DNA of 32,110 bases from Desulfobacteraceae bacterium (GTDB lineage Bacteria > Desulfobacterota > Desulfobacteria > Desulfobacterales > JALSRD01): contig JAMOVG010000272.1 in the NCBI GenBank assembly GCA_027061725.1, forward strand, positions 1-32,110. The letters are read 5' to 3'. The notes beneath the pieces are model-generated. The model did no database searches. It saw only the letters and a list, made by a program, of their open reading frames with translations, and was not told the origin of the DNA. Shown here in pieces: positions 5,639 through 32,110 of this stretch. A program made the translations under genes and the position numbers. Position 1 is the first letter of the stretch. Each line of letters begins with the position of its first letter.

Positions 5639-5654
5639 AACGGCTGCGGGGAAA

Positions 5655-6152
5655 TCAGGCCGCGCCGACGCCGTTCTCGTCGTCGGGGGAAAAATAGGTC
5701 ATGGAAGTTTTCTTGAGCTCGCGGCGGCTGAACAGCAGGGTGTAGTCCCTCACCCCGGTGGCTTCGGAAATCCGGCGGGCCGTCTCCAGGCAGGCCCCCT
5801 CGTCGGCCCCGTGGATCATGGTGTAGAGGTTGTAGGGCCAGTCACGGTTGGGGTTGCGGTGGTAACAGTGGGTCACCTGGCCGAAGCCGGCCATGGCCTG
5901 CCCCACCTCGTCCACCCGCTCCTCATCGACCCGCCAGGCCACCATGGCGTTGGCCTCGAAGCCCGATTTCTGGTGCCGCAGGGTGGCGCCGAAACGCCGG
6001 ATGATGCCGCGCCGGTTCAGGTCCTGCAGGACCTCGAGCAGCCGCTGCTCCTCGATGCCCAGGCGCCGGGCGATCTCCCGGTAAGGGTGGGGCACAATGG
6101 GCAGATCTCCCTGGATCTGGGCGATAATCTTTTTTTCAAGGTCACTGAGCAT
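5655..6152 (-). CDS. ahbB: Siroheme decarboxylase subunit, AhbB-like (Lrp/AsnC-type fold)
   Basis: 165 residues: an N-terminal winged helix (about 5-55, with YREIARRLGI and GIIRRFGATLRHQKSGF) and a C-terminal ferredoxin-like AsnC domain. The tract ANAMVAW, the histidine pair in THCYHR (94-99) and WPYNLYTMIHG (105-115) are typical of Ahb/Nir siroheme decarboxylases rather than true Lrp regulators. These enzymes convert siroheme to didecarboxysiroheme in the alternative heme pathway of sulfate reducers and archaea. Assignment as the B rather than the A subunit rests on the RHQKxGFxANAM pattern and is less certain. The partner subunit and AhbC/D are not in this window. The gene sits downstream of mtnA, separated by 150 bases. 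Confidence 0.8.
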   Translation of the reverse strand: MLSDLEKKIIAQIQGDLPIVPHPYREIARRLGIEEQRLLEVLQDLNRRGIIRRFGATLRHQKSGFEANAMVAWRVDEERVDEVGQAMAGFGQVTHCYHRNPNRDWPYNLYTMIHGADEGACLETARRISEATGVRDYTLLFSRRELKKTSMTYFSPDDENGVGAA

Positions 6153-14935: not shown

Positions 14936-16294
14936 CTACGCACCCAGAGCCTGTATGCGCTCGTCCAGGTATTCGGGCGCTACGCCGATGGCCCGGGCCG
15001 TGCGCAGGGGATCATTGTCGTTTTCCAGCAGCTTGAGACGGATGAACTCGCGTTCGAACGCCTCGCGGGCCTCTTCCCAGGAGGACATGAAAAAGGGCGC
15101 CGAGGTGGCCGGCGGAATCACCGGCCGCGCAGCCGGGTTGTAGGGCAGCGGGATGTCGGCCTTTTCGATAACCTCCTTCTTTACCATGATGGCCAGCCGC
15201 TCGACCAGGTTCTTGAGTTCCCGCACGTTCCCCGGCCAGTGGTAGCCGCACAGCAGCTCCATGGCCTCGGGGGTCATCTCCTTCTTGGGGCTGCGGTTCT
15301 TGCGTGCACTCTCGGCCAGGAACGTCTCCACCAGCAGGGGCACATCCTCCAGCCGCTCGCGCAGGGGGGGCACGTGGATCGGGATCACGTTGAGCCGGTA
15401 AAAGAGTTCCTTGCGGAAGCGGCCCTTGTCGATCTCCTCTTCCAGGCGCTTGTTGCTGGCGGCGATCACGCGCACATCCAGGTCCAGGGTGCGATTGCCG
15501 CCGACCCGCTGGAACTGCTTCTCCTGCAGCACCCGCAGGATCTTGCCCTGGGTCCGGAGGCTCATGTCGCCGATTTCGTCGAAGAAGATGGTCCCCCGGC
15601 TGGCCAGCTCGAACTTGCCGCGCTTCTTGGCGGTGGCCCCGGTGAAGGCGCCCTTCTCGTGTCCGAAAAGCTCGCTTTCGATCAGCTCGTCGGGAATGGC
15701 GGCGCAGTTGACGTCCACCATGGGTTCGGCCGCCCGGCTGCTCAACTGGTGGATGGTGCGCGCCACCAGCTCCTTTCCGGCGCCGTTTTCACCGCTGATC
15801 AGAATCCAGGCGTCCGAAGGCGCAGCCGTCATGATCTGTTTCTTGAGCTCCTGCACGGCCGGCGAATTGCCGTTGATGGAGTGCCTCTCGAGGGTCTTCT
15901 TGCGCAGGTACTTGTTCTCCTCTTCCAGACGCCGGAAGTTCAGGGCGTTGTTGATGGCCACGATGACCTTGTCGATGGACAGGGGCTTTTCGATGAAGTC
16001 GAAGGCCCCCAGTTTGGTGGCCTGCACGGCGGTCTCGATGGTGCCGTGTCCCGTGATGATGATCACCTGGATGTAGGGGCTCTCCTTCTTGATCTCCTTG
16101 AGGGTCTCAATGCCGTCCATACCGGGCATCCAGATGTCCAGCAGCACCAGGTCCGGGGATTCGGCGTCGATGACCTTCAGGGCCTCGTAACCGTTTGAAG
16201 CCGTCAGGATCTCGAACCCCTCGTCGGAGAGCAGCCCGCTCAGCGACTGCCGAATGGATGCCTCGTCATCTACCACCAGAATCGTCGAATACAT
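14936..16294 (-). CDS. ntrX: Sigma-54-dependent response regulator, NtrX-like
   Basis: 452 residues. A receiver domain (1-120) has acidic DD at 9-10, phospho-acceptor D53 and K103. A central AAA+ domain (about 140-370) has Walker A GENGAGKE (168-175), the sigma-54 contact loop GAFTGA (215-220), Walker B IFFDE and arginine-finger region RxRxxDVP. A C-terminal helix-turn-helix is present but unusual: the Fis-type recognition helix, normally like SRSTLYRKL, reads APEYLDERIQALGA. It lies 87 bases after the NtrY-like kinase, its likely partner. NtrYX pairs usually govern nitrogen, redox or envelope responses; linkage to lpxC suggests envelope control here, by inference. Confidence 0.9.
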   Translation of the reverse strand: MYSTILVVDDEASIRQSLSGLLSDEGFEILTASNGYEALKVIDAESPDLVLLDIWMPGMDGIETLKEIKKESPYIQVIIITGHGTIETAVQATKLGAFDFIEKPLSIDKVIVAINNALNFRRLEEENKYLRKKTLERHSINGNSPAVQELKKQIMTAAPSDAWILISGENGAGKELVARTIHQLSSRAAEPMVDVNCAAIPDELIESELFGHEKGAFTGATAKKRGKFELASRGTIFFDEIGDMSLRTQGKILRVLQEKQFQRVGGNRTLDLDVRVIAASNKRLEEEIDKGRFRKELFYRLNVIPIHVPPLRERLEDVPLLVETFLAESARKNRSPKKEMTPEAMELLCGYHWPGNVRELKNLVERLAIMVKKEVIEKADIPLPYNPAARPVIPPATSAPFFMSSWEEAREAFEREFIRLKLLENDNDPLRTARAIGVAPEYLDERIQALGA

Positions 16295-16381
16295 GCATTA
16301 TCCTGTTTTTTTGAAATCCATTTCAGGGACATCCGCCTGCCGAAAAAGCCGGCTTCCCCGTGTCCCCCCTGCGCCGGTTGG

Positions 16382-18652
16382 TCATGCCAGGGCCGCGCGC
16401 TGGGCCGCACGGGTCAGGTCCACCGGCAGCTCAATGATGAACTTGGCGCCGCAGGGCTCGTTATCCTGTACCCGAATCATGCCGTTGTGATCAAGGACAA
16501 TCGAATTGACGATGGTCAATCCCAGTCCCATACCGCTTTTCTTGGTGGAAAAATTGGGCTCGAACAGCCGCGTCTTGTCTTCGTCGGAAATGCCCGGCCC
16601 GTTGTCGGCCACTTCGATACGCACCAGCTTCAGGATAGGATCCAGAGACACGCTGATGGACACCCGCCCCTCTTCTCGGTTGGCCGCCACGGCATTGTCC
16701 ACCAGGTTGATGAGCGCCTGCTTGATCTGCTGGCGGTCCAGGTTCAGCAGCGGGATCTCGTCCTTGATGTCGATCTCGAACGTCACCCCCTGGTGCCCCT
16801 CACGGTAAAGCGACACGGTCTCCTCGATGATGGGCGGCAGGGCCTGCGGCCGGGGATTGGCCGTCGGAAAACGCGCGAAAGCCGAGAACTCGTTCACCAG
16901 GTTGCGGATCAGCTCCACGTGGTCGATGATCATGCGCGTGCACTCGTCGAAAACCGGTTCGTTGAGCTGCTGCGAGTATTTGCGCTTGAGGCGCTGGGCC
17001 GACAGGCTGATGGGTGTCAGGGGGTTTTTGACCTCGTGGGCGATGCGCCGCGCCACTTCCCGCCAGGCCGCCATGCGCTGGGCCTTTTCCAGCTCGGTCA
17101 GGTCATCGAAAACCATCACGATGCCCATGTGCTGCCCGGTGTCGTCCTTGAGGGCGTTGATGGTCAGCAGAAAGGTCCGCGGGCTGCCCTCCACGGTGAG
17201 CCGCAACGTCAGCTCCACGGTGCTGTCCGAGGTGGTGTTGAGGCTGTCGAGGACTTCCTCGGCCAGGTTGCGGTGCTGGCCCCGCAGCAGGTTGCGGTAG
17301 CTCTGCCCGAGCACCTCCTCGGCCTTGAGGTAGAGCATCTTCTCGGCCGAGGTGTTGATGGTGGTGACATTGCCCTCTGCGTCCAGGGTGATGACCCCGG
17401 CGGAGACGTTTTTGAGGACGATCTCCATGTACCGCCGCCGCTCCTCGATCTCGATGTTCTGCTGCTGCAGGATACGTGAAGAACGCTCCAGCTGCTCCCG
17501 CCCGGTCCGCAGGTCGGCGGTCATCTTGTTGAAAGACTGCACCAGGGAGCCGATCTCGTCGTCGGAGGTCATGCCGATTTCGAAGCCCAGGTCTCCCTCG
17601 GCCACGCGCCGGGTGCCCTCGGCCAGCAGCTGAATGGGCACGCTGATGGACTTGGCCAGGTAGAACCCGAACCAGATGGCGCAAAAGACCACCAGCAGGG
17701 CAACGATGGACAGGGTGATGTAATAGGTGCTTTGAATCGGCTTCTTAAGCAGCTTGATCTGCTGGTATTCCTCGAACCCGCGCGAGATGGAGGCCATGTT
17801 GTTGACCATGTCGGCCGACAGCAGGACGCCCACTACCACGAAACCGCTCGCCCGGGCCGGATCCGTGCCGAAGGGAACCGTGGCCACGGAACGCACCAGT
17901 TCCCCGTTGGGCAGCGACTTGGTCATGGACTTGTAGGGGGTGTCGGCCGCCTTCTGCTTGAGATCGCTGACGCCCACCACGCCCACCGGCGTGTTGGACA
18001 GACGCGACGAAAAGGCTACCGCCAGGCGCCGTCCGTCCCTGCGGTAGACCTCCACCAGATCGAGATTGAAGGCGCTCTGCACCACACGCACATAATTCTT
18101 GAGCGCCTTGCGTTTTTTGCGGTTGAGCAACCCCTTGCTCTTGATCTGGTAAGAGATGCGCTCCAGGAAAAAACCGTTGTTCTGCTCAATGTGGGTGTAG
18201 AGCTGGCGGCCCACGGTGAGGGAGTTTTCCAGGGCCTGCTCGATGGGCACGTTGAACCAGAATTCAATGCTGGTGGTGATAAAGTTGATGGAGAAAAAAA
18301 AGAGCACGATGGTGGGCAGCAGCGACAGCGCAATAAAGGCCACCACCAGCTTGGTGCGCAGCTTGGCCCCCAACACGTTGCGCCGCCGCTCGAAAAAGAG
18401 CTTCACCAGGTTGCGGAAAACCAGGAAGATGAGCAGCAGGAGCAGCAGCAGGTTGATGTTTATGAGAATAAACATCAAGATGGTGTTGGAGACTGGGAAA
18501 TCTGCCCCGAAGTGGATGACCCGGTTTTCGGCGTAGGTCAGCAGCACCACCACGGCCAGGATGACGAATATCAGAATGATTTCCCGGCGGCGGCGGCGGA
18601 GCCCCTTTTCCGAAACCAGGGGGGACGATGTTCTGTAGACGTTCTTTCTCAT
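16382..18652 (-). CDS. ntrY: Membrane sensor histidine kinase, NtrY-like
   Basis: 756 residues. Three N-terminal transmembrane segments (about 24-41, 57-80, 102-125), a sensory region to about 305, a fourth segment (309-333), a HAMP domain (334-390), a PAS domain (about 405-515), then the kinase core. The phosphorylated histidine is H539 in RRIAHEVKNPLTPI. ATPase boxes follow: NLVDNAVAA, DNGPGI, FEPNFSTK and GMGLGLTIV. This is the NtrY plan, and ntrX follows immediately. No Shine-Dalgarno is evident before the ATG at 18652. It is separated from the DUF4390 gene upstream by about 400 bases in which I find no convincing gene. Confidence 0.92.
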   Translation of the reverse strand: MRKNVYRTSSPLVSEKGLRRRRREIILIFVILAVVVLLTYAENRVIHFGADFPVSNTILMFILININLLLLLLLIFLVFRNLVKLFFERRRNVLGAKLRTKLVVAFIALSLLPTIVLFFFSINFITTSIEFWFNVPIEQALENSLTVGRQLYTHIEQNNGFFLERISYQIKSKGLLNRKKRKALKNYVRVVQSAFNLDLVEVYRRDGRRLAVAFSSRLSNTPVGVVGVSDLKQKAADTPYKSMTKSLPNGELVRSVATVPFGTDPARASGFVVVGVLLSADMVNNMASISRGFEEYQQIKLLKKPIQSTYYITLSIVALLVVFCAIWFGFYLAKSISVPIQLLAEGTRRVAEGDLGFEIGMTSDDEIGSLVQSFNKMTADLRTGREQLERSSRILQQQNIEIEERRRYMEIVLKNVSAGVITLDAEGNVTTINTSAEKMLYLKAEEVLGQSYRNLLRGQHRNLAEEVLDSLNTTSDSTVELTLRLTVEGSPRTFLLTINALKDDTGQHMGIVMVFDDLTELEKAQRMAAWREVARRIAHEVKNPLTPISLSAQRLKRKYSQQLNEPVFDECTRMIIDHVELIRNLVNEFSAFARFPTANPRPQALPPIIEETVSLYREGHQGVTFEIDIKDEIPLLNLDRQQIKQALINLVDNAVAANREEGRVSISVSLDPILKLVRIEVADNGPGISDEDKTRLFEPNFSTKKSGMGLGLTIVNSIVLDHNGMIRVQDNEPCGAKFIIELPVDLTRAAQRAALA

Positions 18653-23183: not shown

Positions 23184-24320
23184 CTATCGACGACGCCGGA
23201 GGCGCTGGATGGACAGCCGGATGCTGTCCTGCATGCGCCGGATGGCTTCGCCGAGGTCGCCGATCTCGTCATTGGACTTGATGTCCAGTTCGACATCCAG
23301 GTCGCCGACGCTGATGCGCTCTGCGTGATCGGTCAGTTTCTGGATGCGCGACGTCAGGATGCTGCTGTAGGTCAACACGATGACCCCCACCAGCAGCAGC
23401 GTTCCAACCAGGATGCCCAGGGTGGTATTGCGAACCGCGGCGGTGCGCTTGCGTGCGTCGCGCTCCACTTTTTTCAGCGGCCGGATGAATTCGTCTTCGT
23501 AGATGGTGGCGGCGATGCCGTATTTGGTGCCCTCCACCGGCGTGACGAACATGTACTTTTCGCGCAACTCGCCGTCGGCATCCGTCCAGGTGTAATACCC
23601 GTCCTTTTCGATGTTTTCGCCCTTATCGATGTCGCCGATAATCCGCACCCAGCGATCAAAGGATTTGCCCAGAGGCTTCTTCACCAGGGGCGTCAGGGGG
23701 CGCCCGATAATCTTGGCGTTGGGGTGCGCCCAGGTCACCATGGGCCCCACGGCATACAGGGCCGTGTAACCGGTCAGCCCCACCCTCTGGATGGCGATTT
23801 TCTTGAAGTTCTCGTCCTTCATGAAATCCCGGGGGCTCAGGTTCGGGTGACTGAGCAGGTACTGACGGCACTGGGAGGCCACGGTGCGGGCCGTGTCGCG
23901 GATGACCTGCTGACCCATTTTGGTGACCACTTTTCCGGTCTGGCGCGTCATGGCGGCGGCAAAGCTGTTCATCTGCCAGATGTAAAACCCGCCGGCACCT
24001 GCGATGATCAGGATGGGGATCACCAGAAATAGCACCATCATCTTGGCCCGCAGGCCCATTCCCCGTTTCTTCGGGGGGGGCTCTGCAACCGGTGCCCGGC
24101 CTTCATCCCCGGGCGCCGTTTTCGGTGCGGCGCCGGCCTCGAACGGCTGTCCGGAGGCGGCATCCTGCGGCGGCGGTGCAGGGATCTCTTCAGGCGGCGG
24201 TTTTTTCTCCACCAGCACAATGTGTCCGCATGTCTTGCACTTGAAGCGTGCCCGTTCCCCCTTGATGGCATCCGGGTCGATCTGGTACTTCTTTCCGCAT
24301 TCTTCGCAAATGACGATCAT
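23184..24320 (-). CDS. Membrane sensor: zinc ribbon, Cache-like domain and HAMP, no output domain
   Basis: 378 residues. An N-terminal MJ0042-type zinc ribbon (C5-x2-C8, C28-x2-C31, with QIDPDAIKG between) is followed by a proline/alanine-rich linker (41-84), TM1 (93-113), an extracytoplasmic Cache-like ligand domain (about 118-290; GLTGYTALYAVGP, GYYTWTDADGELREKYMFV), TM2 (299-320) and a HAMP domain (321-375) where the protein stops. There is no kinase, cyclase or methyl-accepting signalling domain, so it must pass its signal to a partner. The ATG at 24320 has AGGAG eight bases upstream. It lies 96 bases downstream of a periplasmic binding protein on the same strand, likely its ligand partner. 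Confidence 0.8.
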   Translation of the reverse strand: MIVICEECGKKYQIDPDAIKGERARFKCKTCGHIVLVEKKPPPEEIPAPPPQDAASGQPFEAGAAPKTAPGDEGRAPVAEPPPKKRGMGLRAKMMVLFLVIPILIIAGAGGFYIWQMNSFAAAMTRQTGKVVTKMGQQVIRDTARTVASQCRQYLLSHPNLSPRDFMKDENFKKIAIQRVGLTGYTALYAVGPMVTWAHPNAKIIGRPLTPLVKKPLGKSFDRWVRIIGDIDKGENIEKDGYYTWTDADGELREKYMFVTPVEGTKYGIAATIYEDEFIRPLKKVERDARKRTAAVRNTTLGILVGTLLLVGVIVLTYSSILTSRIQKLTDHAERISVGDLDVELDIKSNDEIGDLGEAIRRMQDSIRLSIQRLRRRR

Positions 24321-24416
24321 CTCGCTGACTCCTTTTGTGACGTATGGGTCGACGCAAGGGCCTGTGCGGGCAGGCCACGGCACTGCCGAAAGCGGCCTGC
24401 GGTTCACGAAGCCCGC

Positions 24417-25256
24417 CTATCGGCGCAGCACGATCTTTTTCAGTTCGCTGAGCGCATGCTGATCGGGTTCCACGAATCCCTGCAGATGGGCGGCCTTGAG
24501 AACCGGGCTGTCCGGGGGTAGGGACAGGAGGGCCTCGCGAACCCTGGCGGCCACCGACGACGGCACGCTCTTGTGCACCGCGAAGACCCAGTTGGGCAGC
24601 CAGGTGGTCCTGGCCAGCACCTTGATCTTGGACGGATCGATAACCTTGTCCACGCGGTGCAGCGCCGATTCACGGATGAAGCCCACGTCCACCTTCCTGG
24701 AAAAGACGCCCAGGATCACGTTCTCCTGCTTGTTTCCCGGGCTGCCGCTGGGAATCATGTCCATCTCCACGTCGATCCCCTTTTTCATCAGGAAATCCCG
24801 CTGGGAGATATAGCCGCCGGCCGATTGCAGGGAAACGATGGAGACGCTGCGCCCCTTAAGGTCCTCGATGGTATTGATACCGCTGTCGGTGCGCACGATG
24901 ATGATGCCTCGGAAACGGGTCTTGTCCCTGCCCTTGCTGGCTACCGCCAGGGGTTTGACCTGCCTGGAGACCTTGGCGTAGACGACCGGGTTCTGGTAGC
25001 TCAGAAGCACCTTGCCGCGCATCACCATGCTGATATGGTCGGCGAAGTTCTTCGGCATAACGAACTCGACATCGATGTCGGTCTGCTCGGCAAGGTAGTC
25101 GGCCAGGGGGCCGAAGCGCTCCAGAATGACCACGGGGAAAAAGCGCGGCAGTACCGCGAAGCTGTACGAATCCAAGGCTTTCGATGCCCCCGCGCATGCC
25201 AGCAGCACCAGCACCGCCATCGTCACTACCACCAGTTTTTTCTGCCAGTTGCCCAT
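24417..25256 (-). CDS. PhnD-type periplasmic substrate-binding protein
   Basis: 279 residues with a Sec signal (MGNWQKK, hydrophobic core, cleavage likely after SKA near residue 27; a weak lipobox LLAC is also possible). The mature part follows the PhnD/TauA/NitT-like fold: SFAVLPRFFPVVILERFGPL, ISMVMRGKVLLSYQNPVVYAKV, TIEDLKGRSVSIVS and VDVGFIRESALHRV. Family members bind phosphonates, phosphite or other small anions, usually for ABC transporters, but no permease or ATPase gene is nearby; the next gene is a Cache/HAMP sensor instead. AAAGGAGG precedes the ATG, and a sigma-54-like element lies about 110 bases upstream. The ligand is unknown. Confidence 0.85.
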   Translation of the reverse strand: MGNWQKKLVVVTMAVLVLLACAGASKALDSYSFAVLPRFFPVVILERFGPLADYLAEQTDIDVEFVMPKNFADHISMVMRGKVLLSYQNPVVYAKVSRQVKPLAVASKGRDKTRFRGIIIVRTDSGINTIEDLKGRSVSIVSLQSAGGYISQRDFLMKKGIDVEMDMIPSGSPGNKQENVILGVFSRKVDVGFIRESALHRVDKVIDPSKIKVLARTTWLPNWVFAVHKSVPSSVAARVREALLSLPPDSPVLKAAHLQGFVEPDQHALSELKKIVLRR

Positions 25257-25364
25257 GAAAGCCCTCCTTTGGTCATAAAGACGTGGGTCTGCCTGCGCAC
25301 TGTTCAGGCCGGAAAGAGTCGATGGGCGATAAACTTCTTAACAGCCCTATGGCGACTACGATGC

Positions 25365-25380
25365 TGCAATATGAATGCCA
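25365..25380 (-). promoter_or_regulatory. Sigma-54-type promoter (-24/-12) for the substrate-binding protein gene
   Basis: On the minus strand TGGCATTCATATTGCA has GG and GC separated by exactly ten bases and matches the TGGCA and TTGCA halves of the sigma-54 consensus. Predicted start near 25354, leader about 98 bases. A sigma-54 activator (the NtrX-like protein or another) would be required. Confidence 0.5.
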
Positions 25381-25452
25381 GCCAGATAAGGTTCAAGAAA
25401 ATACCAAGGCGTGGATTTTAAAGGAAAATCAGAGGAGAGGAGTGTGACCGGG

Positions 25453-25534: not shown

Positions 25535-25753
25535 TCATTCCGCGTGGGGCCAGACCGTATGCCGCTTTTCTACGAAGTAACAGAAACGGTCCCATGCGAA
25601 TTCACGGCCGGAAATGGGACAGCGCAGGGTAACCTTGCGCTCCCCGACGGCCGCCACTTCCCAGTCGCCCCGGCGGGGACCGTCCTCGATGGTGATCTTC
25701 TGGCCGACGGTGAAGGGAAACATTCTGAAAAAGGCCACATCTTCTTCGGACAT
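25535..25753 (-). CDS. 72-residue conserved-looking protein, function unknown
   Basis: A compact, probably beta-rich cytoplasmic protein. FTVGQKITIEDGPRRGDWEV and ERKVTLRCPISGREFAWDRF look like a small SH3-like or PilZ-like barrel with alternating strands, rich in Phe and Trp. It has a clear ribosome site (CGGAGG, eight bases from the ATG) and its own intrinsic terminator, so it is most likely a monocistronic gene. A TTGACG box at 25853-25848 (minus strand) may be its -35, but the -10 is poor. It diverges from the small-RNA promoter about 140 bases away. I do not recognise the family. Confidence 0.72.
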   Translation of the reverse strand: MSEEDVAFFRMFPFTVGQKITIEDGPRRGDWEVAAVGERKVTLRCPISGREFAWDRFCYFVEKRHTVWPHAE

Positions 25754-25871
25754 GCTGAAAACCTCCGGGATGACGGACCGACGACGTCCGTAGTTTCGGG
25801 TTTCGCCAAAGGCGGTACACCCTCTAGGTAGTGCACCCGTCCGTGAACGTCAACCCCGTCGGAACCCTTTT

Positions 25872-25922
25872 GAATATTTTTTAAAAAAACCACTTGACAT
25901 GTCACTTTGTGACACTTATAGT
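25872..25922 (+). promoter_or_regulatory. Strong sigma-70 promoter with UP element and operator
   Basis: An AT tract (GAATATTTTTTAAAAAAACC, from 25872) resembling an alpha-CTD UP element precedes TTGACA (25894-25899), a 17-base spacer and TATAGT (25917-25922). The spacer contains the palindrome TGTCACTTTGTGACA (25900-25914), so a repressor bound there would block RNA polymerase. Predicted transcript start is near 25929. Confidence 0.75.
25900..25914. repeat. Palindromic operator inside the promoter spacer
   Basis: TGTCAC and GTGACA are perfect inverted arms around TTT. A second palindrome TGACATGTCA (25895-25904) overlaps the -35, giving three TGACA half-sites in 20 bases. It does not match the CRP/FNR, Rex or HcpR consensus sites I know. 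Confidence 0.6.
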
Positions 25923-25968
25923 GTAGGTCAGCAGTCAGAACTTTTTCATTCATTCTCTCCTTTCAACC

Positions 25969-26001
25969 CCGGGGTGGCGCTTCCCCCAGGCGCCACCCCG
26001 G
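25969..26001 (+). other. 12-bp perfect hairpin near the 5' part of the small RNA
   Basis: CCGGGGTGGCGC (25969-25980), loop TTCCCCCAG, GCGCCACCCCGG (25990-26001). No T run follows, so it is a structural element rather than a terminator. Its cytosine-rich loop could be a pairing site for target RNAs. Confidence 0.6.
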
Positions 26002-26175
26002 AACCCAACTGGTGAAACGGAGCCCTGTAAATGTGAACGTGCAACGAAACCGACAAACCGGCGGTAGCTCACCGCACAGATTTATATCATCGATCTTCTG
26101 ACGCAATGCGGTAACAACGAAAGAACCGACTTGTCTGCTATCAGACCAAAAACCAGCATTTCCTCCTGAACCAGC

Positions 26176-26214
26176 CCCCCCGGGCCGACGCTGTCGACCC
26201 GGGGGGTTCTGTTT
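26176..26214 (+). terminator. Intrinsic terminator of the small RNA
   Basis: CCCCCCGGG (26176-26184) pairs perfectly with CCCGGGGGG (26198-26206); an inner CGAC/GTCG stem closes a GCT loop with one mismatch. TTCTGTTT (26207-26214) follows. It also lies about 20 bases beyond the end of the minus-strand Roadblock gene, but lacks a T run in that direction. Confidence 0.75.
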
Positions 26215-26234
26215 GAGAGGACCGGCAGCGGGCC

Positions 26235-26588
26235 TCAGCGGCCGCGCCTGAAAAAAAATCGCGCCTTGCGGCGCTGTTTGCCGCCGTTTCCCAGCGCCAC
26301 CGTCAAGGCATCGCAGTTAAGCCGCACCATGGCCGCCGGGGCACCGTGGTCCATGATCACCATCAAGTATCCCCATGGCCCCGGTCGCACATAGAGTCTG
26401 GCGTTTTCATAGAAGAGATCGGCCTCCGCGAATTCCGCCAATCCCGCCAGGTCAAGGTCGTTTTGCAGCGGGTCGATATCCGCAGCCGGTGCCCTGCCGG
26501 ACCGGAAAACCGTTTCGCCCGTCGGTGAAATCAGCAGCGCCCCGCGGACGCCCTTGATTTCCAGAATGTCGTTGAACGCTTTTTCCAT
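26235..26588 (-). CDS. Roadblock/LC7-like protein with basic, Phe-rich tail
   Basis: 117 residues. The body follows the Roadblock/LC7 pattern of small-GTPase regulators: helix MEKAFNDILEIKGVRG, strand GALLISPTGETVF, central helix DLAGLAEFAEADLF, strands RLYVRPGPWGYLMVIMD, and C-terminal helix AAMVRLNCDALTVAL. It ends with a strongly basic, aromatic tail (QRRKARFFFRRGR) that could bind membrane or nucleic acid. It is the last gene of the MglBA cluster, 38 bases after the REC-PATAN regulator. I start at ATG 26588 because the domain begins there; upstream in-frame codons are unlikely. It is much more divergent than the MglB-type protein at 30728, so the family call is moderate. Confidence 0.65.
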   Translation of the reverse strand: MEKAFNDILEIKGVRGALLISPTGETVFRSGRAPAADIDPLQNDLDLAGLAEFAEADLFYENARLYVRPGPWGYLMVIMDHGAPAAMVRLNCDALTVALGNGGKQRRKARFFFRRGR

Positions 26589-26626
26589 GTCTGTCGCCGC
26601 CGTGTGCGAATGTCCACCCACGGGCC

Positions 26627-27628
26627 TCAAGCGGTGATTCGCAACAGTTGCTGGAACAGCTGTTCGCGGGGGCACTTGTTCTCCAGAGAAACCACCGTGT
26701 GCGCCTCGTCGGGCAGCAGCACCACCGCCGATGCGGGCCCGCGGCGCGCCCAGGCAAACGCCAACCGTCCGGCACCGAGCGCCCGTCCCAGACCCGCCAA
26801 ATCGGCCATCAGGGGCTGCCAGCTTTCATCGCTGTAAACGTCTTCCACGCCTTTGAGGTGTCTCAACCGATCGAGAAAAACCTGCCGGGACGGTGCGGCC
26901 CGTTGCCCCCCGTCGCCCCCCGGCGCCGGCTGCGCAAGGGCCGGCGTGCCGGCCTCGTCCTTGCGCTGCATGGCTTCCAGCAGGATGGACTGCAGGTCTT
27001 TGCGGATGGGGCCTGTCTTCAAAGGGCAGCCCTCCTGGATGGAAACCGCCACCTGTTCCCAGGGAAAAAGCTCGTAGGCCGCCTCTTCGGCCCTCAGCTC
27101 TCCGCAGCGGGCGTCAAGCAGTCTCCCCTGGTCGAAAAAGAGCACGCCGCGGCGGCGCTCTTTCGCATCCACCAGGCGCAGCGTGCAGGTCTTCTGCTCC
27201 ATCTCTACGAGTTGCAGAAACATGCTGGTGGTGACCCCCCGCAGGGTTCCGCCGTCAGACTGCTTTTTCAGCAGCGTCAGGATGACTTTCGAGAGGTACT
27301 TGATCTTGAAAGGCTTGTCCAGGTATCCGGCGGCCCCGCGTTTCCTGGCAAGCACCTGGGTCTCCGGGGTGCTGAAGCCGGACATGATGATGACCGGTAT
27401 TTCCGGAAAGTTTTCCCGAACGTGGGCCAGCAGACCAAACCCGTCCATGCGCGGCATCTTCAGGTCCGTGACCACCAGGTCCACGGGGTGGCGGGACAGT
27501 TTGGCGGCGGCCGCCTCCCCGTCCCCGGCGATCAGCACTTTGAAAACGTCGCCGTATTTGGCCATGCCCTCCTTGAGCGAGAGCAGCGCCTCCTGGTTGT
27601 CATCAACGATCAATACGGATTTTACCAT
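26627..27628 (-). CDS. Response regulator with REC and PATAN (DUF4388) domains
   Basis: 333 residues. An N-terminal receiver domain has DD at 9-10, phospho-acceptor D55, SGFS near 83 and K105. It is followed by a DUF4388/PATAN-type domain (about 127-200; TLRGVTTSMFLQLVEMEQKT, RRGVLFFDQGRLLDARCGEL). A proline/glycine-rich linker (about 225-245) leads to a C-terminal alpha/beta region (250-333; LRHLKGVEDVYSDESW, ASAVVLLPDEAHTVVSLEN) that may be a degenerate Roadblock fold. There is no DNA-binding domain, so output is by protein contact. The kinase at 31158 is its likely donor. The start is ATG 27628, with AAGG five bases upstream; longer in-frame starts add arginine-rich sequence. Confidence 0.82.
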   Translation of the reverse strand: MVKSVLIVDDNQEALLSLKEGMAKYGDVFKVLIAGDGEAAAAKLSRHPVDLVVTDLKMPRMDGFGLLAHVRENFPEIPVIIMSGFSTPETQVLARKRGAAGYLDKPFKIKYLSKVILTLLKKQSDGGTLRGVTTSMFLQLVEMEQKTCTLRLVDAKERRRGVLFFDQGRLLDARCGELRAEEAAYELFPWEQVAVSIQEGCPLKTGPIRKDLQSILLEAMQRKDEAGTPALAQPAPGGDGGQRAAPSRQVFLDRLRHLKGVEDVYSDESWQPLMADLAGLGRALGAGRLAFAWARRGPASAVVLLPDEAHTVVSLENKCPREQLFQQLLRITA

Positions 27629-27729
27629 GGCCTTGGCCTTCCTTGGGTCGTTCCGGGCACCGGTCGCACGCCGGCGCGAAAGCCTGCCTGACACACCGGA
27701 AGGTTTTCGCATGCCGGCCGGCGCTCCCC

Positions 27730-28722
27730 TCAAAGCTGAATCCGAAACCGCCGGATCACATCGCCGTACTTCTCCCGCCAGGGGTAAAGCGTCTTTTGAA
27801 ACACGGGCCCGATGCCCAGTTCGGCGACCAGTTCGCGGACGGACTCGGTGACGCCGGCCAGCAGTTCACCGTTCCGCACATCCCGATGGCATTCGATACG
27901 CTGGTCGCGGTATTCGAATTCGGCCGCGAAAGGATCCAGAAAGGGAAAATGCTCAGCCTTCTCGACGAACTTTTTTTTCAGCAGCACACGGAAATCGCCC
28001 CTGATACGATTGTCCGCCACCACCACGTCCTCCAGACGGCGCAGCAACTCCTCGAGCATCTCCATGGTGCGCCGGCGGCCGTTGCCGTCGGCCGGACCGG
28101 CGGCCGGCAGCGCGGCGGCGGGGACGGCCTTTTCCAGGGGAAGACGCAGCACGTTGAAGACGGCCCCCGTATCCGAGGCCTTGGACATCAGCGTGTACCA
28201 GAGGTTCCCTGCGGTGTTTAGCCGCCAGCCCTCCCATGAGTGGGATGCGCCCAGGCACTTGCCGCTGCAGAAAAAGATCCGGCCGCGACCGCTGTCCGCA
28301 TTGAGCATGACATCAATGTACCCGGTCAGACGTTCGGCCTGCATCTTGGCAATCAACTTTTCCAGGTTGGTGAAATCGGTGCTCAGATTCTTGTAAACAA
28401 CCGCCGCGTCAGGAAGGTTGGCCCAGTAATCTATAAAGGCTTCTTCCAGGCCGTAGAGGTTCACGGAGAAATTCTCAATCCTTGCGATCTCGGCGATCTC
28501 TTCCATTCCGATCAGCCGACTGCCGCCATTGTCCCTGCGCTCCAGGATGACGCTGACGAGATCGTCCTTGTTGAAAAACACGGCGGCTTCCGCCGCAGCA
28601 GACGACATGCCAACACAGCCGGTCCCGACTTCTCCCTGGTAGTGCTCGATGAACCGGGGGATATTCAGGAAATAGCTGTTGAGATTCTCGACGACAGGAT
28701 TTTCCTTGGGAAAGATAATCAT
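27730..28722 (-). CDS. Protein with PATAN-like segments, function unknown
   Basis: 330 residues, no signal or membrane segment. Two stretches resemble the PATAN/DUF4388 core, where a glycine turn leads into a strand ending FFxxGxLxxA: near 30-58 (GEVGTGCVGMSS, AEAAVFFNKDDLVSVIL) and near 128-162 (ERLTGYIDVMLNADSGRG, RIFFCSGKCLGAS). A helical linker (about 215-245, EMLEELLRRLEDVVV) and a mixed C-terminal domain follow (EFEYRDQRIECHRD, ELVAELGIGPVFQKTLYPW). It is placed between the 157-residue protein (12 bases away) and the REC-PATAN regulator, so it probably belongs to the same signalling complex. The PATAN assignment is by eye and moderate; I do not recognise the C-terminal part. Confidence 0.6.
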   Translation of the reverse strand: MIIFPKENPVVENLNSYFLNIPRFIEHYQGEVGTGCVGMSSAAAEAAVFFNKDDLVSVILERRDNGGSRLIGMEEIAEIARIENFSVNLYGLEEAFIDYWANLPDAAVVYKNLSTDFTNLEKLIAKMQAERLTGYIDVMLNADSGRGRIFFCSGKCLGASHSWEGWRLNTAGNLWYTLMSKASDTGAVFNVLRLPLEKAVPAAALPAAGPADGNGRRRTMEMLEELLRRLEDVVVADNRIRGDFRVLLKKKFVEKAEHFPFLDPFAAEFEYRDQRIECHRDVRNGELLAGVTESVRELVAELGIGPVFQKTLYPWREKYGDVIRRFRIQL

Positions 28723-28734
28723 GTCCAGCCTCCA

Positions 28735-29208
28735 CTAGTATCGGAACTGCCGGATCTTGTTGAGCATCCCCTGGCGGAAAGCGACGCGCTGTTCTTCCCG
28801 CGGAATGTCCTCGGACAGGATGTCCACCAGCTCGGCAGCGTGGTTGACGGGAAACCGATTGCGCGTGTGCCCCATGTCCTCCAAGGCGTCGTCTATGAGA
28901 ATGCCGGCCAGCGGCCCCACAGCCAGGGCCAACTGGTTTTGAAGGAACCTGAAAAAATCGGCATCCGCCAGAGAAACCGGCTTGGCGACCGGCTCAATGA
29001 GGTTCAGCCGCAGAAGCCGCTGGGTAACGTCATGCAGCTCTGACAGGTCCAGCCCCGTGTTGCCCGAAACCGAGGAAATGCTCTTTTTGCCGTCGAACTC
29101 GATAAATACCCTCAGCATCTGCCCATTGAGGGAAAATTCACCCAGGTCCTCCCTGGCCACCTGCTTGAAAACCATCGAGGGAAGTTCGTCCACGGGCACG
29201 TCCATCAT
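28735..29208 (-). CDS. Adaptor-like protein of the MglBA cluster, function unknown
   Basis: 157 residues in two parts. The first ~80 resemble a winged-helix or PqqD-like small domain (LNGQMLRVFIEFDGKKSISS, LSELHDVTQRLLRLNLIEPV), where a fast/slow helix pair follows a strand. The last ~70 form a helical domain (FRFLQNQLALAVGPLAGILI, AAELVDILSEDIPREEQRVA), similar in feel to C-terminal modules found next to PATAN or Roadblock proteins, where an AVGPLA-type helix is followed by an IP-x3-R helix. It has no catalytic motif. It is tightly spaced: 31 bases after the 208-residue gene and 12 before the 330-residue gene. I infer a scaffold role only. Confidence 0.6.
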   Translation of the reverse strand: MMDVPVDELPSMVFKQVAREDLGEFSLNGQMLRVFIEFDGKKSISSVSGNTGLDLSELHDVTQRLLRLNLIEPVAKPVSLADADFFRFLQNQLALAVGPLAGILIDDALEDMGHTRNRFPVNHAAELVDILSEDIPREEQRVAFRQGMLNKIRQFRY

Positions 29209-29239
29209 GATCCCTCCCTATGCTGTCTGTTTGTCCATT

Positions 29240-29866
29240 TCATCGCCGCCGCAGTTCTTCTCCGAGCAGGCGCAATTCCTCGCGGATGACCCGGCGCAGA
29301 TCGTCGGCCAGGTAACGGGCGATCTGCCGCAGCTCTTCGGCAGACAGGGCGGAAACGGCGGCCTCCCTGTCCGGTGCACTGCGGGCCTTGCCGGATTCCG
29401 CGGCCACGCGGGCCTGCAGTGCGTGAAACTCCCTCATCTTTTCACGCAGAATCTCCATCTTCCGGTCGGGGTCCTCAACGCCGCCCCCGGCGACTTTCTC
29501 CAGTCCCGCGAAAACGGACTTGAGCACTTTCATGGAGTGCACATTGGCCTGCCCCTTGCGCACCTTGATGTACTTTCCCAGAGAGATCATCATCTGGATC
29601 AGTATCTGGACGACCTTGTCATCGCGGTAGGTTTTGCGCAGAAGATCCAGCTGCTTCAACAGGCCGGCGATGGTCTCGTCGGTGATCTCCCAGTCGATGG
29701 AAAGAATATTGGCTTTCACCACCCGCAGCGGGTAGTAGTTGGTGCCGGCGTCCTGGGGGGAATCGGCATCCGGCGCTTTTTCCCCTGAGGCATCAGCGTC
29801 CCCGAAAAGGTTGTCCAGCCGTCTGCCCACCTCGACGGATAAATCCCGATCGTTTTTCTCAGTCAT
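29240..29866 (-). CDS. Helical protein of the MglBA cluster, function unknown
   Basis: 208 residues. An acidic, probably disordered N-terminus (1-42) leads into a well-ordered-looking helical core (43-130; YYPLRVVKANILSIDWEITD, ETIAGLLKQLDLLRKTYRD, QILIQMMISLGKYIKV). A charged, probable coiled-coil tail follows (135-208; MEILREKMREFHALQARVAA, with repeated ELRRRI-type heptads). There is no membrane segment, metal site or nucleotide motif. The gene follows mglA by 84 bases, suggesting it may be an effector or partner of the GTPase. I do not recognise the family. Confidence 0.6.
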   Translation of the reverse strand: MTEKNDRDLSVEVGRRLDNLFGDADASGEKAPDADSPQDAGTNYYPLRVVKANILSIDWEITDETIAGLLKQLDLLRKTYRDDKVVQILIQMMISLGKYIKVRKGQANVHSMKVLKSVFAGLEKVAGGGVEDPDRKMEILREKMREFHALQARVAAESGKARSAPDREAAVSALSAEELRQIARYLADDLRRVIREELRLLGEELRRR

Positions 29867-29950
29867 GGGCTCACCTCCTGTCTGTTGGCCCTCCCGCCCC
29901 GTCGCTCCCGGCCGGCGGGTTCGGCTGCAACCGCATTTTTGCCGCCGACG

Positions 29951-30556
29951 TCACCTCAGCTGCCCCTGGATTGTGGGCATGGTCAGCATGATGATCTTTT
30001 TCATGGTTTTGATCACGTTGTATCCCTTGATCGCGCTGGCCACGAAGGACGGCGCCTTCAGCTGGGCGTTCAGGTCGCGATCCAGCGTCTGGGGCGAAAG
30101 CAGCGGAATGCCCTCGTCAGCCAGATCGATCTTGTTGTACTGCATTACCAGGGGTATTTTGAAAATGCTGCGATTGTATCCCGACAGGTTTTCGTACAGA
30201 TTTTTCAGAGACAGCATGTTTTTCTTGCGGACAATGGCCATGCAGTCCGCCACAAAGACGATACCGTCGACCCCGCGCAGCACCAGCTTGCGGGTCGAGT
30301 CGTATTTCACCTGCCCCGGTACGGTGTAGAGCTGCACCCGGATGTCGTATCCCATGATCCTGCCGACGTCGAAAGGCAGGAAATCAAAGAACAGCGTACG
30401 GTCGCCGTGGGTTTTGAGGGAAACCATCTCGGTTTTGATGCGCTCATTGAACTTCTTGTAAATGTATTCCAGATTGGTCGTCTTTCCGCCCCTTCCTGGG
30501 CCGTAGTAGACGATCTTGATCTGTACTTCCCTGGTCTTTGGATTGATAAAAGCCAT
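29951..30556 (-). CDS. mglA: MglA-type small Ras-like GTPase
   Basis: 201 residues, very close in pattern to Myxococcus MglA, which switches between GTP and GDP states to set cell polarity and drive gliding and type IV pilus reversal. P-loop GPGRGGKTTN (19-28), the RTLFFDFLP segment (53-61), switch II TVPGQVKYDSTRKLVL (78-93) with the MglA-specific TVPG in place of DxxG, FVADC near 101-105, and NKID (141-144) are all present. The start MAFINPKTREVQIKIVYYGP is the family's own beginning. An MglB-type gene precedes it, in mglB-mglA order, after 171 bases. It is probably cytoplasmic and polar when GTP-bound. The exact behaviour controlled is unknown. Confidence 0.9.
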   Translation of the reverse strand: MAFINPKTREVQIKIVYYGPGRGGKTTNLEYIYKKFNERIKTEMVSLKTHGDRTLFFDFLPFDVGRIMGYDIRVQLYTVPGQVKYDSTRKLVLRGVDGIVFVADCMAIVRKKNMLSLKNLYENLSGYNRSIFKIPLVMQYNKIDLADEGIPLLSPQTLDRDLNAQLKAPSFVASAIKGYNVIKTMKKIIMLTMPTIQGQLR

Positions 30557-30727
30557 TACTGTCCAGACGAGGCAATACCCGCAACCCGAAGGAGTCCGTC
30601 GTCTCCAGTCTGCAGGAAAATGATTTCAACAGCCGGCTTTCCCCGGCCGGCCGACGTACCTGTGCCCGCCGGCCCGCTCCGTGCAAACGGCAGGGGAAAG
30701 CCCGGCCCGCAGCCTTTCCGGCCCCGT

Positions 30728-31132
30728 TCAGCCGTCGACGGGACTGGAGAGAATTTCACTGATCCGGGCGACGGCCTCCGATACTTTTAGCCGCAGGAAT
30801 CCGAGCGAGACCTCGTTGCTGAAAATGGTCACCAGCAAGAACTCGTCCATCACCTTGCTGAAGTGGATATTTTCGGACTTTCCCTTGTGGAAGAGCAGCG
30901 AGAACTCGTCCTCCCCGATGATCTTGGCCATAGCGCTGACGGCTCCAAAATTTCCCGCCGCCAGTGCCGCCAGAGAGTATATGTCGTGCTTTCTGGCGCC
31001 GTCGTCACGAGTGGCTAGAATATTGCCGGCCATGTCGATGAGCACGACACACTTGACCCCCAGATCGATGATGTCCTTCTGGAGCGTGTTCTCGATTTCG
31101 TTCAGTTGATTCTCTCCTACCACGAAAGCCAA
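30728..31132 (-). CDS. mglB: MglB-type Roadblock/LC7 GTPase-activating protein
   Basis: 134 residues. It follows the MglB pattern closely: helix QLNEIENTLQKDI, strand CVVLIDMAGNILAT, then DIYSLAALAAGNFGAVSAMA, KIIGEDEFSLLFHKGK, FLLVTIFSNEVSLGFLRLKV and a terminal helix. MglB forms dimers and acts as GAP for MglA. The start is TTG 31132, because GAGGAG (31140-31145) is seven bases upstream and translation then opens (M)AFVVGENQ; longer frames add unrelated proline-rich residues. It lies 25 bases after the histidine kinase gene and ahead of mglA. Confidence 0.85.
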   Translation of the reverse strand: MAFVVGENQLNEIENTLQKDIIDLGVKCVVLIDMAGNILATRDDGARKHDIYSLAALAAGNFGAVSAMAKIIGEDEFSLLFHKGKSENIHFSKVMDEFLLVTIFSNEVSLGFLRLKVSEAVARISEILSSPVDG

Positions 31133-31157
31133 AACGGTTCTCCTCTCTGGATGAAAT

Positions 31158-31880
31158 TCAATCGCACCGGGACGAGGCATCATCCGCTGAAAGGGTGGCA
31201 AACCGGATAATCACCTCGCTGCCCACTCCCGGCGAACTCGTCATGGTGATGTCGCCCCCCATCTCAGCCGCCAGCTTGCGGGCGACGGCAAGTCCCATTC
31301 CGGTCCTTCCCGGACGGGTCGTAAACAGAGGTACGAAGAGCTTCTCGATTTCCTCCGGCCGGCATCCGGCGCCGTTGTCTACGACTCCGATGCGCACCTC
31401 CGAGCTGCCCCCGGCGGTGTAGATTTCGATAGTCGGGTTTTCGGCTCCCTCGAGCGCGTCCAGGGCGTTTTCCACCGCCGAGAGCACGATCTTGTTCAGG
31501 GCCGCCGGGTTGCCGCACACCCGGCAGGCGATACTTTCATAGCGCGTGATCAGGCGAACCTGGTGTTTTTCGACCCGCCGCGTCACCAGCGGCAGCAACT
31601 GGGCCCAGAAATCGGAGAAGGAAACCGGCCTGCAGTCCTCCACCGAAAACATGGAGTACATTTTCAGGGCCTGCACGATCTCCTGCTGGCGTCCGACAAG
31701 CTGGGAAACCCGCTCGAGATACTCCCTTTTCTTGGGCCTCTCGAAGGTGTCGTAGTTCTCGCGCAGTACATCCAGCGTGATTTTCAGCGCATTGACCGAA
31801 TTGCCCAGCTGGTGCCGCAGCACCGACAGGATCAGCTCCAGCTGATGCGGGTCCTTGACCTGATGTGTGTGGCGGTTCAA
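31158..31880 (-). CDS. Soluble histidine kinase without a sensor domain
   Basis: 240 residues with no membrane segment or PAS/GAF domain: essentially a dimerisation helix bundle plus ATPase. The likely phospho-acceptor is H23 in LSVLRHQLGNSVNALKI. The ATPase boxes are NKIVLSAVENALDAL (N), VVDNGAGCRPEE (G1), LFVPLFTT (F) and GRTGMGLAVARKLA (G2). Being cytoplasmic and first in the MglBA run, it probably takes its input from a partner protein. Its product would phosphorylate the REC-PATAN regulator at 26627, by inference. The start is TTG 31880 with a weak GGAAAG about ten bases upstream, so the exact N-terminus is uncertain. Confidence 0.82.
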   Translation of the reverse strand: MNRHTHQVKDPHQLELILSVLRHQLGNSVNALKITLDVLRENYDTFERPKKREYLERVSQLVGRQQEIVQALKMYSMFSVEDCRPVSFSDFWAQLLPLVTRRVEKHQVRLITRYESIACRVCGNPAALNKIVLSAVENALDALEGAENPTIEIYTAGGSSEVRIGVVDNGAGCRPEEIEKLFVPLFTTRPGRTGMGLAVARKLAAEMGGDITMTSSPGVGSEVIIRFATLSADDASSRCD

Positions 31881-32110
31881 AATATGCTCTTTCCCCGGCT
31901 ATTATGGCGCGGATTGACCCCGCAACCCGCACCGGCCTCCCGCCGAAACCGGCCGGAAAAACTTGACTGCCGCACGCCCAGCACGGCGCTCGTTGCGCAG
32001 GTATCTCCTGGCCGTAAACAAGCAAGAAAAATGCCATCGACGGGCGGCGGCACACGACCCCGTTGCTCCTACCGGCAAACGCAAACCGCCCCAGCGGCTG
32101 CAATGGAATG
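31881..32110. other. Upstream region of the MglBA cluster, to window edge
   Basis: 230 bases with no convincing gene. On the minus strand CATAAT occurs just ahead of the kinase gene and could be a -10 box, but no matching -35 lies 16-18 bases away, so the cluster's promoter is not identified. Confidence 0.3.

Follow-up and report, generated by a model that had tools for sequence, protein, structure and literature searches.

Contig JAMOVG010000272.1 of a Desulfobacteraceae bacterium (assembly GCA_027061725.1), analyzed here from positions 1 to 32,110 (the whole stretch of 32,110 nucleotides is hereafter called the window), encodes a PhnD-type periplasmic binding protein with a predicted sensory role, followed by a membrane receptor that carries a cytoplasmic zinc ribbon and a C-terminal HAMP domain. 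Gene content, synteny, promoter conservation, family linkage, and receptor homology make it reasonably probable, in our judgment, that interchangeable binding proteins gate signaling by such zinc-ribbon/HAMP receptors to a module of Ras-like GTPase and PATAN (DUF4388) proteins. With more reserve, and somewhat short of an even chance, we propose that these receptors form a bacterial class through which periplasmic ligands act directly on Ras-like (MglA-type) GTPase switches, with a socket that accepts unrelated classes of binding protein.

Both genes lie on the minus strand, where a sigma-54-like (-24/-12) promoter element (CTGGCATTCATATTGCA, 25381..25365) precedes the binding protein gene (25256..24417) and this in turn the receptor gene (24320..23184). 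Neither an ABC permease nor an ABC ATPase is found downstream of the receptor among the window's open reading frames and their Pfam matches; the next gene is Mg-chelatase/YifB-like and on the opposite strand. The binding protein (279 residues) has a signal-peptide-like start and matches Pfam Phosphonate-bd (PF12974) with an E-value of 2e-55, in agreement with a preliminary description of this DNA that had called it PhnD type. It scores below the PhnD equivalog TIGR03431 (77.6 versus 261.1 bits) and narrowly below the broader TIGR01098 (105.3 versus 112.05 bits). In an alignment with PtxB, the window protein has S-A-G at the positions of the AioX/PhnD pocket serines, and since an S-A-G-G-like loop is common to the receptor-linked and kinase-linked clades described below, phosphonate seems an unlikely ligand on sequence grounds.

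The receptor (378 residues, from the ATG at 24320 to 23184) comprises an MJ0042-type zinc ribbon, a transmembrane (TM) segment, an AF1503-like single Cache/PAS-like ectodomain at about residues 115 to 290, a second TM segment, HAMP, and a conserved RLRRR tail. The zinc ribbon spans residues 1 to 34 on the cytoplasmic side (Zn_ribbon_4, E = 2e-10), and HAMP occupies residues 321 to 368 (E = 3e-14) with no domain C-terminal to it; dCache_2 falls below threshold (22.3 bits versus a cut-off of 26.5). An AlphaFold model from a 51-sequence alignment (mean predicted local distance difference test [pLDDT] score of 87.8) consists of a long helix, an alpha/beta domain, another long helix, and HAMP, with residues 52 to 75, the linker after the zinc ribbon, at a pLDDT <50. 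Near matches of this model in Foldseek, where ranks 1 to 3 are large integrative models, include single Cache/PAS-like chemoreceptor domains, for example, TlpB, and domains solved with small ligands bound, which bears out the earlier description of a Cache/HAMP membrane protein, rather than an ABC permease and ATPase, behind the binding protein gene. A profile of 51 receptors (alignment A2, with 50 of the 80 loci introduced below; L125 was excluded because its matched stretch is not translatable in one frame) finds the engineered AF1503 structure 4cq4 with an E-value of 1.8e-20, the match spanning profile positions 126 to 381 and including the ectodomain, and another profile search gave 2e-18. 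The nearest relative of the zinc ribbon in the Protein Data Bank is AgmX/GltJ (7zok, E = 2e-6 and 4e-6).

A scan of genome contigs confirmed 170 relatives of this receptor, the best 80 loci of which were kept (some share one genome) and annotated with a simple purpose-made gene caller and profile-based labels. Nearly all are from metagenome-assembled genomes (MAGs) titled Desulfobacterales, Desulfobacteraceae, or Deltaproteobacteria, with a few titled only Proteobacteria or Pseudomonadota; the isolate Desulfobotulus alkaliphilus is also represented. The C2-C2 zinc-ribbon pattern is present in 97 of 110 receptor gene calls, several of the others being truncated calls, and the conserved post-HAMP tail (RMQDSIRLSIERLRRRR) lies ≤12 residues from the C terminus in 100 of 110, an end so conserved as to rule out a broken kinase. 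A second receptor family, c31, differs in its ectodomain (sCache_3_2 is below threshold in three members) and shares, in all seven members, both the zinc ribbon (the gene calls of G027 and G074 are truncated, and their ribbon is seen in the frame upstream) and HAMP; its tail matches the pattern in three of seven members and is similar by eye in the others.

The standard gene order around the window-type receptor (c1) is Roadblock/LC7, MglA-like GTPase, c5, c2, receptor, c8 (PATAN), in some cases a PAS protein, response regulator-PATAN, c4, PilB-type ATPase, and in some cases PilZ, where c2, c4, c5, and c8 denote families of cluster proteins. Neighbor counts over 81 loci (the 80 and the window) are lower bounds, many pieces being short. 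The gene immediately upstream of the receptor is c2 in 65 loci, and c2 is found anywhere in the piece in 70; c8/PATAN is immediately downstream in 63 and anywhere in 65; and the GTPase, Roadblock, and PilB genes are found in 59, 56, and 48 pieces, respectively. A survey of 192 genomes from the class found a full-length receptor match in 49 and c2 in 64; c2 is present in 46 of the 49 receptor genomes versus 18 of the 143 others (Fisher 8e-26, kinship of the genomes being ignored). Before this test, 11 of 65 receptor places, with kinase-like open frames >600 residues, were excluded, and of the 54 that remained, 40 have c2 at a distance of no more than 1 kb. The receptor count misses divergent copies, as in G084, which was scored as without a receptor yet harbors one inside its cluster (L217). 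Given the frequent PilB and occasional PilZ genes, the module probably acts on type IV pili or on some comparable polar machine; in cyanobacteria, PATAN proteins contact the pilus motor. The sensor had previously been labeled output-less, which is probably wrong, since it has both a cytoplasmic zinc ribbon, overlooked in that account, and a conserved post-HAMP helix, and its family resides in this GTPase/PATAN/PilB cluster. At L223 (4070-6423, on a contig shared with L126), two receptors of the window's family stand in tandem on a piece that lacks the GTPase cluster. A fusion of acetyl-CoA hydrolase/transferase and GNAT (c13; Pfam was run on L053 only) precedes the Roadblock gene of the cluster in several genomes, at L051-L053, L062, and L217.

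A search of the 192 genomes and an overlapping 58-genome set at E below 1e-50 retrieved close PhnD-type relatives of the binding protein in nine other genomes, eight of which have a zinc-ribbon/HAMP receptor adjacent; with the window genome included, a receptor of this architecture adjoins the PhnD-clade gene in 9 of 10 genomes. The neighbor belongs to the window's own receptor family in G063, where a PATAN-c2 fusion, receptor, PhnD, and Peripla_BP_6 genes stand in one row, and to the c31 family in G084, G085, G072, G183, G074, G010, and G027, so that the pairing is not unique to the window and the co-occurrence in other genomes that the preliminary description had proposed as a check is found. 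The 58-genome set alone yields no further PhnD gene beside a window-type receptor; that case is found only in the larger set. The fused c2–PATAN (DUF4388) gene of G063 corresponds to L210 8762-9559.

A tree of 26 binding protein rows, whose long branches were flagged by the tree tool, groups 12 receptor-linked rows and the G015 protein into one clade (support 98/95), apart from a group in which 10 of 11 rows lie beside histidine kinases and from two rows beside methyl-accepting chemotaxis protein (MCP)-like proteins. Two labels were revised: L083 was moved from receptor-linked to other in view of its MCP-like neighbor, and L079, whose kinase is on the opposite strand, to kinase-linked. The window's own genome encodes two paralogs, one beside a histidine kinase that falls into the kinase group and one beside an MCP-like protein that falls into the MCP group, together with a fourth, weak binding protein match (E = 1.7e-4). 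The MCP-like pairing (by eye; L081 3964-6862, own genome C183) represents a third kind of sensory partner. No ABC permease directly adjoins the PhnD-clade genes among the Pfam-scanned neighbors, a scan that covered some of the neighbors. An ABC ATPase-like frame is seen by eye about 4.5 kb upstream of c2 in L213.

The PhnD type is one of five binding protein families beside the receptor, the others being Peripla_BP_6, DctP, TAXI, and PF04392. Of 94 sequence-distinct receptor rows, 14 show a binding protein gene no more than two genes away and in the same orientation: Peripla_BP_6 type in 11 (seven confirmed by Pfam; L139, L143, L149, and L163 by a purpose-made profile alone), PhnD in two (window and G063), DctP in two, and TAXI/NMT1_3 in one, with two rows having two kinds. 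The DctP and TAXI assignments come from the Pfam-scanned genes, which makes their counts lower bounds; the PF04392 protein, which precedes a second receptor in G141 (L221), stands outside these 14 rows. Six genomes contain 87 Peripla_BP_6 matches in total (10 to 23 per genome), and by our own estimate about 1% of genes would have such a gene this close by chance. On the receptor tree, the binding protein label requires nine changes by parsimony, a value reached in 0 of 500 shuffles (mean 13.3), while well-supported branches force only three; the label is thus clustered and likely of several origins. Binding protein neighbors occur more often where the piece lacks the cluster (11 of 31) than where it contains it (3 of 63; p = 2e-4); short contigs make this comparison less secure. 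In L057 (4835-5917; G041:C151), a 360-residue protein with three c2-profile matches in a row is encoded upstream of a receptor, beside Peripla_BP_6 and TAXI-type binding proteins.

The promoter element was scored with an approximate -24/-12 weight table, as were all sigma-54 sites discussed here. With a score of 17.0, it is the highest on either strand of the window, ends 108 bp before the binding protein start codon, and agrees with the GG-N10-GC element described previously; Markov-simulated windows (n = 50) contain on average 0.08 sites scoring as high. Among 1643 upstream stretches from the related loci, the window's included, 1.2% score ≥14 and 0.3% score ≥17.03. In G001, a genome of the same genus, a counterpart (TGGCATCCATATTGCAG versus TGGCATTCATATTGCAG in the window) ends 113 bp upstream of the equivalent gene, and the two elements share 16 of 17 bases in an otherwise diverged stretch. 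This G001 gene encodes a Peripla_BP_6 protein, which is not homologous to the PhnD type and precedes a receptor only 46% identical to that of the window, far below the flanking NtrY, DUF4390, LpxC, and YifB proteins (78, 69, 75, and 72%, respectively) and also below a small ORF (57%). One rpoN match occurs in each of the two genomes, which, together with the conserved promoter, favors the sigma-54-type control proposed earlier for the pair. The third-best window site (ATGGCATTTTTCTTGCT, 32021..32037, minus strand) lies upstream of the kinase gene at the head of the GTPase cluster and is closely matched by a site (ATGGCATTTTTTTTGCT) before the orthologous G001 kinase; the second-best (28613, minus strand) is intragenic. 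Candidate elements at other receptor/binding protein loci score 15.9 (L150), 14.1 (L214), and 13.0 (L213), with the remaining loci <11, although this scoring omitted some first genes (DctP in L140 and the kinase in L210). With most other loci under 11, sigma-54 control looks like a trait of the window's genus and a few others rather than of the whole receptor family.

These features suggest a scheme in which sigma-54 RNA polymerase would transcribe the pair, the PhnD-type protein would capture a small periplasmic ligand, and the loaded protein would dock on the receptor ectodomain as an interchangeable adaptor. HAMP would then change state and relay the signal to both cytoplasmic ends, the zinc ribbon at the N terminus and the helix after HAMP, which would act on the MglA-like GTPase/Roadblock/PATAN module; this module, which in relatives includes the receptor itself and often a PilB-type ATPase, would thus probably govern type IV pili or some comparable polar machine. 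We infer the docking, the direction of the signal, the zinc ribbon-GTPase contact, and the pilus output.

Several observations weigh against this scheme. The window receptor lies outside its usual slot: the c2–c8 slot of the adjoining cluster lacks a receptor, which instead starts about 1.9 kb downstream of c4 together with the binding protein, and no PilB gene adjoins the cluster. In G001, the receptor (contig C58) and a receptor-less cluster (C73) are on different contigs; physical linkage is therefore broken in this genus. G001 thus carries the two halves of the window junction at 25753-26235 on separate contigs, and this junction may be an assembly chimera. No binding protein is found within two genes in 80 of the 94 receptor rows, and so the receptor family does not need one; the supported branches of the receptor tree force few label changes, as noted above; and G015 has a PhnD-clade gene without an adjoining receptor (1 of 10 genomes). 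Furthermore, zinc ribbons of the MJ0042 type are found across a wide range of unrelated proteins.

That the binding protein instead delivers substrate to an ABC transporter with genes elsewhere in the genome, its receptor adjacency being incidental, is in our view very improbable. Orphan binding proteins of transporters do exist, and the MAG (97.6% complete, 410 contigs) contains 29 matches to the PhnE profile at E ≤0.01, as permeases of other systems would give; none of these reaches the curated PhnE cut-off (best 50.9 versus 216.7 bits), so that the partner permease whose presence would have contradicted the earlier proposal is not among them. The clade's position beside zinc-ribbon/HAMP receptors in nine of ten genomes and the two own-genome paralogs of the sister groups, one next to a histidine kinase and one next to an MCP-like protein, likewise argue for sensing rather than transport, as originally suggested.

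The output of the sensor pair might instead be a co-opted histidine kinase (NtrY, for example, or the kinase at 31158-31880) or an MCP array and not the GTPase, a possibility we regard as doubtful. HAMP receptors can form mixed assemblies, the sensor-less kinase leads the cluster both in the window and in G001, and a gene labeled as a histidine kinase precedes the Roadblock gene in several relatives; such a gene is nonetheless present in only 14 of 81 pieces, far from the frequencies of c2 and c8/PATAN, with the label resting on one profile (c10) that other kinases may escape. It is unlikely that the receptor senses alone, with the binding protein as an antagonist, chaperone, or scavenger from the same operon. 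The resemblance of the ectodomain to Cache/PAS-like domains solved with small ligands and the 80 rows lacking a binding protein neighbor speak for it, whereas the recurrence of five unrelated binding protein families beside the receptor, with nine label changes by parsimony, of which supported branches force three, speaks against it.

Sensory Phosphonate-bd proteins are already known, as are MglA genes near PATAN genes. AioX and ArrX, from systems that sense arsenic oxyanions, belong to the former, with AioR acting upstream of an RpoN promoter (PMC5908839), and both are sequence relatives of the window protein (ArrX, E = 3e-9; AioX, 8e-7). Here, too, a Phosphonate-bd-type periplasmic protein encoded beside a membrane receptor, without a transporter, would serve sensing. 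The AioX partner AioS is a histidine kinase, whereas the window receptor has HAMP as its last domain and carries a zinc ribbon, and the kinase-linked relatives of the window protein form a separate clade. The Ser-x-Ser pocket of AioX/PhnD, as given in PMC5908839, is S-A-G in the window protein, which also has no equivalent of AioX Cys106 because it contains a single cysteine, at position 21 within the signal peptide. With the phosphonate ABC system the window protein shares the Phosphonate-bd domain and neither a PhnD equivalog score nor a cognate PhnE.

The AF1503-like receptors of Archaeoglobus have a homologous ectodomain and, like the window receptor, HAMP as the sole C-terminal cytosolic part; PMC4834066 reports C-terminal shortening for these receptors and frequent coupling to STAC proteins like Af1502. 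The window receptor is bacterial, has an additional N-terminal cytosolic zinc ribbon, and is linked to the GTPase/PATAN cluster and binding proteins, as opposed to the transporters and Af1502/STAC proteins of that account. The C-half of c2 has an invariant G-P-x-A (14 of 14) like the STAC motif LGPx(x)A, and the STAC structure 5A1Q is absent among 19 matches of a c2 profile search up to E 10. The Myxococcus protein GltJ/AgmX, whose zinc ribbon is the nearest solved relative of the receptor N terminus and the part of GltJ that binds MglA, is a gliding-machinery protein without Cache/HAMP. It is listed as an MglA effector in PMC12288465. The small GTPase and Roadblock protein also recall MglA/MglB modules, and PATAN proteins occur occasionally near Group 1 and 5 MglA genes (Wuichet and Sogaard-Andersen 2014, PMC4316618); the retrieved part of this survey mentions no zinc, Cache, or substrate-binding protein, whereas the clusters described here usually include the receptor. 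A literature search that covered few subscription journals found no paper that joins the sensory Phosphonate-bd or MglA-PATAN themes with a zinc-ribbon/HAMP receptor or binding protein.

The GTPase cluster adjoining the pair (26235-31880) is encoded entirely on the minus strand. It is led by a histidine kinase without a sensor domain (31158..31880; HATPase_c 6.5e-20, HisKA 4e-5, below cut-off), followed by an MglB-like Roadblock/LC7 protein (30728..31123; Robl_LC7 2e-9) and a Ras-superfamily small GTPase (29951..30556; Pfam Ras 1.9e-6), which is 87% identical to its G001 ortholog and which we take to be MglA-like from sequence motifs. Next are c5 (29240..29866), with no assigned function; c2 (28735..29205), with a winged-helix-like N-half and a C-half with invariant A-x-G-P-x-A, usually directly upstream of the receptor in relatives; and c8 (27730..28722), labeled PATAN although itself without a Pfam match, one relative being just under the DUF4388 cut-off. 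The response regulator-PATAN protein (26627..27712; frame 26627-27733, Response_reg 4.5e-23 and DUF4388 4e-14) and c4 (26235..26588, 117 residues) complete the cluster; c4 has no Pfam match and is Roadblock-like by eye only, a profile comparison with c7 giving a probability of 3.6%. Between cluster and promoter, a conserved small ORF (25535..25753, minus strand, 72 residues), syntenic in G001, marks the slot. An NtrY-like kinase and NtrC-like sigma-54 activator pair (14936-18652) lies near the LpxC, DUF4390, and YifB genes that flank the receptor. Elsewhere in the window, a Radical SAM/B12 protein is encoded beside a siroheme-decarboxylase-like (NirDL HTH, AsnC) protein (4271-6152), which suggests heme d1 or alternative heme biosynthesis.

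AF1503-type HAMP-only receptors serve as a model for transmembrane signaling without a recognized effector (PMC4834066), and, if our reading is true, these receptors without output would gain their first plausible output. MglA-type GTPases set cell polarity and motility, and to our knowledge few receptors that feed them have been described; the locus joins this question with that of the HAMP-only receptors. Two species of one genus, with different binding proteins, the same sigma-54 element, and the same receptor family, provide a natural swap experiment, and both questions are therefore testable with a few purified proteins. In these bacteria related to sulfate reducers, outside chemicals may thus steer a Ras-like GTPase switch via interchangeable binding proteins.

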